Part shown: positions 3,614-43,092 of the stretch, one piece after another
Layout: every line of letters starts with the position of its first letter
Numbering within the stretch: the stretch's first letter is position 1
Source of the DNA: Sphingobacterium thalpophilum
GTDB lineage: Bacteria > Bacteroidota > Bacteroidia > B-17B0 > Aurantibacillaceae
Assembly (NCBI GenBank): GCA_943325195.2
Contig: CALPON020000002.1
Location: forward strand, 1-53,844
Direction: 5' to 3'
Length of the DNA: 53,844 bases
The notes under the pieces: model-generated
Databases searched by the model: none
Told to the model about the DNA's origin: nothing
What the model saw: only the letters and a program-made list of their open reading frames with translations
Translations under genes and position numbers: made by a program

Positions 3614-5590
3614 TCAGCGTCCCAGGTAGCGCCAGTTGCGTACTAAAATTTTCAAGTCTTTTTCGCCGTGATAATCGCGAATGTATTGCAGAATGGACCG
3701 GTTTTGCATTGCTGTAGTGACCGTGCTGTCCGGCACATCACCGGGACAGAGGACAGAAGGTCGTATAGCGGGCAGGTCGCGGCGTTCGGCTTTTCCATAT
3801 CCCACCCACGTGTAAATGCCGAAAAGCACCTTTAGACAATTGCTAAAGTAAGCATGCCTTTTTTTCTGAAGGGGATATAGGATCCAGCAGAATGCCAGTA
3901 GGAAGAGAGTACTCAGGACATCGAAGAGGCGCTTACTCCTTTTGTTTTCTGGTTTTGCGATGCCGTTCACGTCCGCAACATACAGATCACCTGCCGTATC
4001 AATACTGTTACTGCCAATGATGGAAAGGCTTTCGGGTGCGGCAATTTTGAACTCCAGTCCGCTTGCGGCCAAACGGTTCATCTTTTCAATAATGATGGCA
4101 GATGAAATATCCTTGGCGCAGAAAATGAGTTCATTAATCTGGCAGACAGAAATAATCTCTTCCAGTTGAACAAGTGTTCCTAAATGGTCGCTCTGGTGAA
4201 AAGCGCCTGTTTGAGGGGAAACAAAACCAATGAATTCTGCTTCGATGTTTGTTTTTTGCACAATATCCTGCACCCTCACAAACTCCGACTCTGAGCCAAT
4301 GATGGCCATGCGGACCGCTTTTTTTGTATTGCCGATGCGGAAGCGTTGTAAGCCGGCCAAGTGATAAAGTGTCCGGCTGAGCAGATAGAGAAGCAGTGTA
4401 TAACCAGAACCGATGAGTATGAGGGCTCTTGAAAAGCGAATGTATTCGGGCAGTAAGCTGTAGACGATCAGAATAAAGGCGGAACCCGTCAGCACCCCAC
4501 GGGTCAGCTTGCGTAAATTAAGGGGACGGTCATAACCACCACTGAAATAGGTAAAGCACATCCAGATGAGCGTATACAGCGGGAAAAACAAATTCAGCAT
4601 CTCTGCCGAATAAAAGTTAGGATAAAGTTTAAAACGTGTTTCATACACGTCCTTGCAGAGATATAGGCCCGCTAAAATCAACACAAAATCAATCGCCGGA
4701 AAAAACAGTTGTTTTATTAATCGCCAAAGAATCGCAGCTCCCGCGCGGAGATAGATGGCCAGGTAAATCATAAAATTAAAGAGCCGGGCGTTATTCTGAC
4801 TAAAATGTTTGGAGGCAAAAATAGCCATGGCTTTGTAAAAAACCACGACATAATTCACGCTGCTTTTTTTGGTGCTTTCGCCTTTGTAATGAATAATGCT
4901 GCTGTCTGCGAAATAATAATTCTGATAACCTGCGCGTGTGAGACGGTAAGAAAGGTCAATGTCTTCACCATACATAAAGAACGTTTCATCCAGCAAGCCT
5001 GCTTTATCCAGCGCTTCTTTGCGCATGAGCATGAAGGCACCACTGAGGATTTCTACCGGCTGGGTTTTTTCTTTATCGAGATAAGTAAGGTGGTATTGTC
5101 CGAAAGTCTGGGATTGCGGAAATAATTTCGCGAGTCCGAAGATTTTATAAAAAGCAACGGCCGGCGTTGGCAGCCCACGTTTACTTTCCGGTAAAAAACA
5201 GCCTTTGCCATCGACCATGCGTATGCCTAGGCCTCCCGCATCTGGATGTGCTTCCATAAAAGCGAGCGTTTTTGTAAAGGTATCTTCCTGCACCACGGTA
5301 TCGGGATTTAGCAGCAGGGCGTATTTCCCCCGGGCTAGTCGCAGCGCCTGATTATTGGCCGCAGAGAAACCCAGGTTTTGCGAGTTCTGGATAAAGATGA
5401 CTTGTGGAAACCGCTCTCGAATGAGGGCTGCGGAGCCATCCACCGAATTATTGTCTACCACAAACACCTCCGACTCCAGATGTTCAGTCGCTTTAAAGAC
5501 CGAATAGAGACATTGTTCCAGAAAGTGCCGGACGTTGTAATTGACTATGACGATAGAGAGTTGCAGATCAGCACTAAAAATAAAGATAAT
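3614..5590 (-). CDS. Family 2 glycosyltransferase fused to a membrane, polyprenyl-glycosylphosphotransferase-like region; start likely non-canonical (ATT)
   Basis: The N-terminal third is a GT-A glycosyltransferase of the rhamnosyltransferase-like GT2 type: VVDNNSVDGS, NPDTVVQED, and GAFMLMRKEA followed by FFMYGEDIDLSYR. About four helices follow, then a Rossmann-like nucleotide-binding segment (MAIIGSESEF), then KRLFDVLSTLFLL. This resembles the CoA-binding-like half of WbaP/EpsE-type phosphotransferases, but I see no intact catalytic domain. The first canonical start is GTG at 5467, but that deletes the first GT-A strand: the frame continues upstream with LSIVIVNYN and HFLEQCLYSV. No ATG, GTG or TTG lies between that motif and the in-frame TAA at 5602. 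ATT at 5590 or 5581, or CTG at 5566, are the only options. Likely role: polysaccharide or surface glycan assembly. Confidence 0.8.
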   Translation of the reverse strand: MIFIFSADLQLSIVIVNYNVRHFLEQCLYSVFKATEHLESEVFVVDNNSVDGSAALIRERFPQVIFIQNSQNLGFSAANNQALRLARGKYALLLNPDTVVQEDTFTKTLAFMEAHPDAGGLGIRMVDGKGCFLPESKRGLPTPAVAFYKIFGLAKLFPQSQTFGQYHLTYLDKEKTQPVEILSGAFMLMRKEALDKAGLLDETFFMYGEDIDLSYRLTRAGYQNYYFADSSIIHYKGESTKKSSVNYVVVFYKAMAIFASKHFSQNNARLFNFMIYLAIYLRAGAAILWRLIKQLFFPAIDFVLILAGLYLCKDVYETRFKLYPNFYSAEMLNLFFPLYTLIWMCFTYFSGGYDRPLNLRKLTRGVLTGSAFILIVYSLLPEYIRFSRALILIGSGYTLLLYLLSRTLYHLAGLQRFRIGNTKKAVRMAIIGSESEFVRVQDIVQKTNIEAEFIGFVSPQTGAFHQSDHLGTLVQLEEIISVCQINELIFCAKDISSAIIIEKMNRLAASGLEFKIAAPESLSIIGSNSIDTAGDLYVADVNGIAKPENKRSKRLFDVLSTLFLLAFCWILYPLQKKRHAYFSNCLKVLFGIYTWVGYGKAERRDLPAIRPSVLCPGDVPDSTVTTAMQNRSILQYIRDYHGEKDLKILVRNWRYLGR

Positions 5591-11196: not shown

Positions 11197-11270
11197 TAGT
11201 CCCACTTGGATTCGAACCAAGGGCCGCAGGTTTAGAAAACCTGTGCTCTATCCAACTGAGCTATGGGACC
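11197..11270 (-). tRNA. tRNA-Arg(UCU)
   Basis: A 74-nt cloverleaf read on the minus strand. Acceptor GGTCCCA with TGGGACT (first pair G-U) and discriminator A; T8 and A9; D stem GCTC/GAGC; anticodon stem CAGGT/ACCTG with loop TTTCTAA, giving anticodon TCT; variable CGGCC; T stem CTTGG/CCAAG with loop TTCGAAT. The CCA end is not encoded, so it must be added enzymatically. It decodes AGA (and AGG by wobble). A promoter lies about 30 nt upstream and a terminator follows directly. Confidence 0.97.
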
Positions 11271-41371: not shown

Positions 41372-42451
41372 ATGTCAGCTAAAAAATCCCCCTCTAAAAA
41401 AGGGGTTGTGAAGAAGAGTGTAGGTGCTGTGAAGACGGCAAAATCTTCTGTTTCAACTGCCGTCAAAAAGAAAAGCGCTAAACGCAGCGCAGTGGTGAAG
41501 ATAAGTGCCAAGCCCGCGGCTAAAAAAGTTCTTAAGCCTGTTGTTGAAAAGGTGACGGCAAAAAAAATAATCGTCAAGAGCGAAGAAAAAGAAACCATAG
41601 AAAAAGTGGCGCCGTTAAAACGCGCCAGGAAGGTGTCTCGTAAAACACTTCCGAGCGTAGTGACTCCGCCTCCTGTAATCATTAGCGATCACCCCAAAAG
41701 CAGAGTCAAAAACATTCTGGTTTCTCAACCTAAGCCAGTCGAAACGGAAAAAAACCCGTATTTCGAACTGGCTAAAAAACATAGCCTGAATATTCAGTTC
41801 CGTCAATTCATTAAGGTCGAAGGTCTCTCTTCACAGGAGTTCAGGGCGCAACGCATTGATATCACCGAACATGGTGCGGTCATTCTCACTAGTAAGCAGG
41901 CGGTTGATCACTATTTCCGTATCTGCAATGAAATGCGCATTACGGTGCCTGAAACCATGAAGTATTTCTGTATTAATGAGCAGACTGCCTATTATCTTCA
42001 GAAATACATTCAATACCGTAAACGAAAAATATTTTTCGGACACGGCACAATCCTTGACCTGGTGGATGTCATCCGCAAAAACCGCGCAGAGAAATTCTTA
42101 CTTCCCTGCAGTGATGTTCACAAGGAACAAATCGTGGATTTTCTCGATGATGTAAAAATCACCTTCACAAAGGCTACTTTTTACAAAACCGTCAGTGCTG
42201 ATTTGAGTGACCTGAAGTCATTGGCAGAATTCGACTTGCTGGTGTTTTTTACGCCGGTTGGTATTCGCTCCCTCAAGCACAACTTCCCTAATTTTAAACA
42301 GGGAAACACCCGCATCGCTGCATTTGGACACGCAACCGCTCAAATGGTGAAGACCCTGGGCTATCGTCTCGATATATTTGCACCAAATCCCCAGAACCCC
42401 AGTATGACTGGCGCTCTGGACGCCTATATCAAAGAAGCGAATAAAAAGTAA
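41372..42451 (+). CDS. hemD: Uroporphyrinogen-III synthase with a histone-H1-like N-terminal tail
   Basis: A 359-residue protein. Residues about 111-359 are a HemD-type uroporphyrinogen-III synthase, which closes hydroxymethylbilane in heme and siroheme synthesis: RVKNILVSQPKP, FRQFIKVEGLSSQEF, YFCINEQTAYYLQKYIQY, LLVFFTPVGIRSLKHNFPNF and FGHATAQMVKTLGY. The first 110 residues are an added basic, low-complexity tail of Lys, Ala, Ser and Val (21 Lys in the first 70 residues; KKSPSKK, VKKKSAKRSA, KPAAKK). This resembles the AlgP/H1 type, not a signal peptide. Bacteroidota HemD proteins usually start near the core. The stop abuts that of the convergent rnpA. Confidence 0.92.
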   Translation: MSAKKSPSKKGVVKKSVGAVKTAKSSVSTAVKKKSAKRSAVVKISAKPAAKKVLKPVVEKVTAKKIIVKSEEKETIEKVAPLKRARKVSRKTLPSVVTPPPVIISDHPKSRVKNILVSQPKPVETEKNPYFELAKKHSLNIQFRQFIKVEGLSSQEFRAQRIDITEHGAVILTSKQAVDHYFRICNEMRITVPETMKYFCINEQTAYYLQKYIQYRKRKIFFGHGTILDLVDVIRKNRAEKFLLPCSDVHKEQIVDFLDDVKITFTKATFYKTVSADLSDLKSLAEFDLLVFFTPVGIRSLKHNFPNFKQGNTRIAAFGHATAQMVKTLGYRLDIFAPNPQNPSMTGALDAYIKEANKK

Positions 42452-42835
42452 TCAGTCCTTTAATTTCAGACACAGCTTCTTTAGGAGCTGCTCGACACTC
42501 TGCGAAACCACTTCAAATGGTTCTTCTTTTTTTGAGGTATACAGAAAGGCTAGGACCAAGTGATTTTGTGATGGCTGGAGACAGGCGTACAAGTCTTCTT
42601 TTTTTAAACGATAAGACTCCCGCATACGTCGCTTCAGCGTATTACGGTCCGGTGATTTTTTAAAGCTCCGCTTCGGGGCCACAAACATGGCCTGCACGGG
42701 ATAATCCATTGGCACCTCATCTTTCAGGAAAACCAATTTAAGCGGATAAACCTGAAGGGATGAGCCCTTCTTGAAAAGCAGATCGGTTTTTTTTCTGCTG
42801 CAAAGTCGCTCGTGTTTATGGAAGGAAGTTGTAAT
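42452..42835 (-). CDS. rnpA: Ribonuclease P protein component; probable ATT start
   Basis: The RnpA protein binds RNase P RNA and helps recognise pre-tRNA. The RNR motif is present as DRNTLKRRMRESYRL, after YPVQAMFVAPKRSFKK. The first canonical start (TTG at 42736) gives only 94 residues and loses the conserved N-terminus. The same frame runs upstream through HKHERLCSRKKTDLLFKKG and SSLQVYPLKLVFL, which is the usual first helix and strand. The frame is bounded by TAA at 42856, and no ATG, GTG or TTG lies in it. ATT at 42833-42835 would give a 127-residue protein of normal length beginning TTSFHKHERL. An indel or sequencing error is an alternative. Confidence 0.88.
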   Translation of the reverse strand: MTTSFHKHERLCSRKKTDLLFKKGSSLQVYPLKLVFLKDEVPMDYPVQAMFVAPKRSFKKSPDRNTLKRRMRESYRLKKEDLYACLQPSQNHLVLAFLYTSKKEEPFEVVSQSVEQLLKKLCLKLKD

Positions 42836-42880
42836 AGGACAAGTAGTTTAAAAGTTTAGCCCCGCTCTCTGCGACAGCTT

Positions 42881-42911
42881 TTTGCTTGCTAAAGATAATT
42901 TTTTACTTTTA
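42881..42911 (+). promoter_or_regulatory. Promoter of the bTHX gene
   Basis: TTTG, exactly 19 nt, then TACTTTTA, seven of eight positions of the Bacteroidota promoter. The ATG is 20 nt downstream, which sets the start codon. Confidence 0.75.
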
Positions 42912-42930
42912 CACAAATAAAACTATTATT

Positions 42931-43092
42931 ATGGGAAAAGGTGACCAAAGGTCTAAACGTGGCAAAATTCATATCGGTACTACGGGTGTTAGCCGCCCAA
43001 AAAAGAAAGCGGTGAAGAAAACCGCAGCTGCTGCTCCAAAAAAGGCCGCTAAAAAAGCACCGGCAAAGAAAGCCGCTAAAAAAGCTGAATAA
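42931..43092 (+). CDS. Small ribosomal protein bTHX with basic C-terminal tail
   Basis: A 53-residue protein. Residues 1-26 (MGKGDQRSKRGKIHIGTTGV, then SRPKKK) match the bTHX family, which fits in the 30S head of Thermus (MGKGDRRTRRGKI form) and is widespread in Bacteroidota. After the core comes a lysine/alanine-rich tail of about 27 residues (TAAAAPKKAAKKAPAKKAAK), histone-H1-like. The upstream in-frame GTG/ATG options overlap the promoter, so the ATG at 42931 is preferred. A hairpin terminator follows 4 nt after the stop. Confidence 0.92.
   Translation: MGKGDQRSKRGKIHIGTTGVSRPKKKAVKKTAAAAPKKAAKKAPAKKAAKKAE

Follow-up and report, generated by a model that had tools for sequence, protein, structure and literature searches.

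The RNase P protein gene rnpA very probably begins at AUU, and its start codon is rarely ATG across the genus

RNase P is the enzyme that trims tRNAs, and rnpA encodes its protein half. To our knowledge, few bacterial genes outside infC keep a start other than ATG, GTG or TTG. The infC gene of E. coli, which encodes IF3, starts with AUU and is autocontrolled by IF3, and pcnB of the same organism also starts with AUU. IF3 represses noncanonical starts, among them the GTC start of sigR in Streptomyces (PMC5472188), and inhibits translation of leaderless mRNA (PMC9031893). In Thermus, rnpA and rpmH have an overlapping start site with AUG starts and a nested gene (PMC9841429).

The window analysed here, a stretch of 53,844 nucleotides from Sphingobacterium thalpophilum, carries an rnpA gene that can be set beside each of these systems. 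The AUH start (ATC, ATT or ATA) of infC is conserved over wide distances and likewise present as ATC/ATT in infC of the window's genus, a group of uncultured Bacteroidota; infC is controlled by the very protein it encodes, whereas rnpA would be a heterologous target on which IF3 may act. With sigR the gene shares a conserved start that is none of ATG, GTG and TTG, lies on a gene distinct from infC and is overlooked by annotation. It differs from sigR in codon class and gene, and regulation by IF3 was tested for sigR, while for rnpA it would be a prediction. The pcnB gene is similar as an RNA-processing gene with an AUU start, and its protein is unrelated. The rnpA of E. coli K-12 is the same gene with a non-AUG start, but this GTG is canonical and the gene adjoins rpmH, whereas rnpA of the window stands alone and diverges from thx. 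Thermus rnpA also has an unusual initiation arrangement, an overlap of a kind that the window's rnpA lacks.

A search of the open-access literature found no paper joining rnpA with AUU or noncanonical starts. Judged by the comparisons below, rnpA is to be placed as a new member among the known genes with conserved noncanonical starts.

Frame and N-terminus of rnpA

The features of the gene and its neighbours are as follows.

42452..42835, minus strand: rnpA, RNase P protein component, ATT start, TGA stop, 127 aa
42833..42835, minus strand: ATT start codon of rnpA, in a column kept in the genus as ATC/ATT/ATA/TTG/GTG/(ATG)
42848..42850, minus strand: in-frame TAA that shuts the rnpA frame upstream of ATT, read from the sequence
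42734..42736, minus strand: internal TTG of rnpA, the start expected from a standard gene caller (94 aa, N-terminus lost)
42931..43092, plus strand: thx, THX-type small ribosomal protein, ATG start, used as control gene
41372..42451, plus strand: hemD-like uroporphyrinogen-III synthase, ATG start, convergent with rnpA and abutting its stop, named by resemblance

The first-pass annotation had proposed that rnpA starts at the ATT at 42835, which adds 33 codons ahead of the TTG at 42736 and gives a protein of normal length, 127 residues. Sequence and frame agree with this, the frame being open to the TGA at 42452. It had also described a TAA and the absence of ATG, GTG and TTG in the gap upstream, which holds, as none of the three codons was read between the TAA (42850-42848) and residue 34; the TAA lies five codons before the ATT instead of the seven given there. 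The four codons separating the two (ACT ACT TGT CCT) are all more than one base away from ATG, so that the ATT at 42835 is the sole near-cognate start in the gap ahead of the conserved F5-H-K-H-E-R-L. The leader contains no ATG in any frame, and the source genome has a single copy of rnpA.

A conserved N-terminus in the 33 upstream codons, likewise part of that proposal, was borne out by a profile search, in which the match of the 127-residue protein to Pfam PF00825 begins with residue 5 on profile position 1, scores 47.1 bits (curated cut-off 22.3) and covers profile positions 1-108 of 109. The N-terminus could also be aligned with RNase P proteins of solved structure (PDB relatives); F5, K7 and E9-R10-L11 were invariant in the alignment, and the first conserved F of the T. 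maritima protein is residue 5 as well. Translation from the internal TTG into a 94-residue product would use the first canonical start of the frame. The match of this 94-mer to PF00825 begins only at profile position 38, however, and 33 conserved residues including the invariant ones would be lost, so that this start was rejected and we give it next to no credence. Translation of rnpA therefore very probably begins at the AUU. Standard annotation will shorten or overlook rnpA, an essential gene, at this place.

Start codons of rnpA in related genomes

When 60 genomes were searched, one copy of rnpA was found in 59, and the start column was read in the 36 genus members with an rnpA match, source genome included. 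The column holds ATC in 8 genomes, ATT in 4, ATA in 2, TTG in 15, GTG in 4 and ATG in 2, with one ambiguous case (relative G010, locus L015), where ATC lies four and TTG eight codons upstream. AUH is thus found in 14/36 genomes, and the source genome as well as some 12 further members of the genus have it without a usable ATG, GTG or TTG; in one of the ATA cases (relative G035, locus L003) a GTG is located two codons upstream. Further GTDB genomes gave the same picture, with CTG in L063 and L068, ATT in L058 and ATC in L059. The weak start is therefore broader than ATT, UUG/GUG being as frequent as AUH in the genus, a point absent from the first-pass annotation.

That this is a start column and not an amino-acid position follows from its leucine codons, all of which are TTG although within these genes TTG makes up 18% of the Leu codons (naive P about 1e-11 or smaller). 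Similarly, all valine codons in the column are GTG (27% of Val codons in the same genes), and stop codons lie 1-10 codons upstream in many genus members. At the same loci the divergent neighbour thx, taken as control, starts with ATG in 30/30 cases, and the nine hemD genes found there by motif all have ATG.

A sequencing or assembly indel that masks a normal ATG could be suspected in a source genome fragmented into 217 contigs. Yet AUH, UUG or GUG occupies the same column in 33/36 independent genomes, including one single-contig assembly, Chitinophaga isolate genomes carry ATA at rnpA, and the leader is free of ATG in every frame. Because the relatives hold ATC, ATA, ATT, TTG or GTG and rarely ATG, an indel or read error was rejected, and we consider it highly improbable. 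The proposed start thus survived the comparison of relatives, with ATG at the codon in 2/36, and the earlier suspicion that the ATT is more than chance is substantiated by the conservation of the column across the genus.

On a tree built from four proteins (RnpA, RecR, GT2 and IF3) the start codon of rnpA changed at least 13 times by parsimony, and just 2 of these changes led to ATG. Among published prokaryotic start-codon switches, by comparison, GUG to AUG accounts for 202/241 and UUG to AUG for 43/79 (PMC5622118). Against these rates, 2/13 changes to ATG gave P values from 0.005 to 1e-7 in a rough test on parsimony counts. We therefore regard it as likely that weak initiation of rnpA is maintained by selection in the genus; as the non-ATG start has been retained through evolution, it resembles a deliberate means of slowing translation more than an error of sequencing.

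Outside the genus, Chitinophaga isolate genomes have a conserved ATA at rnpA and no canonical start. Among 30 rnpA loci read from the Chitinophaga pinensis family, 6 are without canonical start (ATA, ATC or ATT), about 11 have TTG/GTG and 13 ATG, and the other sampled families of the class have mostly ATG. AUH starts in both the genus and the Chitinophaga family point to probably more than one origin. Since infC of Chitinophaga starts with ATG while its rnpA starts with ATA, a weak start at one gene does not always go with a weak start at the other. Five Chitinophaga loci (L113, L115, L118, L127 and L130) show a strongly conserved stretch of about 60 bp directly upstream of the ATA-started rnpA, which could be a candidate regulatory leader.

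Leader length and promoter-like elements

Three elements were assigned upstream of rnpA.

42836..42889, minus strand: putative rnpA mRNA leader of about 50 nt (54 nt from the -7-like box to ATT)
42890..42897, minus strand: TATCTTTA, conserved -7-like box of the Bacteroidota TAnnTTTG type, presumed to serve rnpA
42882..42911, plus strand: divergent thx promoter-like element TTG-N19-TACTTTTA, assigned from the sequence

The block GTAAAAGTAAAAAATTATCTTTACC upstream of rnpA is conserved across the genus, and in it the promoter-like elements for thx and for rnpA overlap and point in opposite directions. The spacer of TTG-N19-TACTTTTA, the thx promoter, contains TATCTTTA and is nevertheless conserved, a hint that this box may work for rnpA. 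Folding of the rnpA leader revealed no structure above chance (z +0.56) and no Rfam family matched at rnpA, which makes a riboswitch-like device in the leader unlikely.

In 13 AUH genomes the distance from the TATCTTTA-type box to the start of rnpA was 44-87 nt, and in 17 genomes whose start is TTG, GTG or ATG it was 7-22 nt. These leader lengths are sequence-motif distances, the nearest matching box being taken for a few outlying members, and in relatives G005 and G012 additional boxes nearer the start also match (chance boxes). The single exception to the pairing of 13 long leaders with AUH and 17 short ones with canonical starts is G035, the ATA genome with the upstream GTG. Fisher's test gave 7e-8 with kinship ignored, a value that overstates the association because the relatives are phylogenetically linked and the independent events number three. 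These are the three AUH to canonical changes counted by parsimony, each of which falls on the same branch as a leader shortening. On the opposing side, the two CTG-started loci named above have a -7-like box near the start. Judged by motif distances, the start class of rnpA thus appears to track leader length, a relation that is new here and absent from the first-pass annotation.

Other weak starts and the possible part of IF3

A second weak-start gene lies in the same window.

3614-5566, minus strand: GT2-domain gene, 650 aa, CTG start at 5564..5566

This gene had been named as a companion case, and it proved to be real: among 29 relatives it starts with CTG in 23, TTG in 5, GTG in 1 and ATG in none. 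The source genome also has CTG at recR (G000:C4:6734-7348, locus L167:6734), which across the genus starts with TTG in 12, GTG in 9, ATG in 5 and CTG in 2 cases. Nearly all genus members lack a canonical start of infC and have ATC/ATT before the conserved N-x-K-K-P; in the source genome it is ATC (locus L137, G000:C49, about 17 kb). The genes rpmI/rplT are not adjacent to infC here and hence were unusable as controls.

The CTG starts of recR and GT2 would also be expected if start choice were relaxed genome-wide by an altered initiator tRNA or IF3, with nothing special about the ATT of rnpA. In stretches totalling 451 kb of the source genome (about 325 genes), however, about 3 of some 325 genes were without canonical start, and besides rnpA only recR and GT2 were seen. 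These candidates were read by eye, since the codon-usage screen was too weak for short upstream stretches and printed no candidate; the background screen would overlook a noncanonical start that an in-frame ATG closely follows, and it did not pick up rnpA itself. The constant ATG of thx (30/30) also speaks against relaxed choice, as does an initiator tRNA of normal look, with CAU anticodon, GGG/CCC anticodon stem and 1:72 mismatch, by which an altered initiator tRNA was rejected. From the few cases in 451 kb and this tRNA it follows that noncanonical starts are restricted to few genes, and a general loosening is improbable. With ATC/ATT at infC and CTG at GT2 in the same genomes, a small set of genes therefore keeps starts of the kind that IF3 represses in E. 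coli and Streptomyces.

The AUU at 42835 would be read by the ordinary initiator tRNA, and the weak start would most likely hold RnpA synthesis low and may make it responsive to IF3, like the AUU of E. coli infC. Weak initiation may be reached by two routes, either an AUH codon behind a leader of some 40-80 nt or UUG/GUG with almost no leader on the mRNA, and both architectures would leave rnpA open to IF3. The steps that we infer here are the transcription start of rnpA, its low expression and IF3 as regulator. Half the genus uses UUG or GUG at rnpA, codons that are not strongly discriminated by IF3, and this counts against the IF3 reading.

Such a start might instead merely fix a low, constant level of an enzyme needed in few copies, with IF3 having no regulatory part, an explanation to which we assign almost an even chance. 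It would account for the mixture of AUH, UUG, GUG and CUG, which is not fixed on IF3-discriminated codons, for the GTG of E. coli rnpA and for the frequent TTG/GTG at rnpA in the Chitinophaga family, and it agrees with the absence at rnpA of the A-rich upstream context of thx (A at -3 45% vs 76%). On the other side, AUH, present in 14/36 members, occurs in genomes much less often than UUG/GUG and forms exactly the class repressed by IF3, infC of the same genomes uses AUH, and the loss of AUH coincides with leader shortening.

All in all, we think it reasonably likely that initiation of RnpA is conserved as weak, a start selected to lower RnpA synthesis, and that it may be IF3-sensitive. IF3 itself as the regulator of rnpA is put forward tentatively, at somewhat less than an even chance. 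It is doubtful, though conceivable, that infC, rnpA and GT2 form a small IF3-responsive set in which RnpA synthesis follows the ribosome:IF3 ratio through two interchangeable leader/codon routes. If true, IF3-responsive RnpA synthesis would tie tRNA maturation to ribosome supply, and the weak start of rnpA offers a testable link from IF3 to tRNA processing. Weak starts at a housekeeping ribonucleoprotein gene, genus-wide as well as in Chitinophaga, suggest that control by initiation fidelity extends to a wider class of genes. Elsewhere in the window, a tRNA-Arg (TCT) is located at 11197-11270 on the minus strand.
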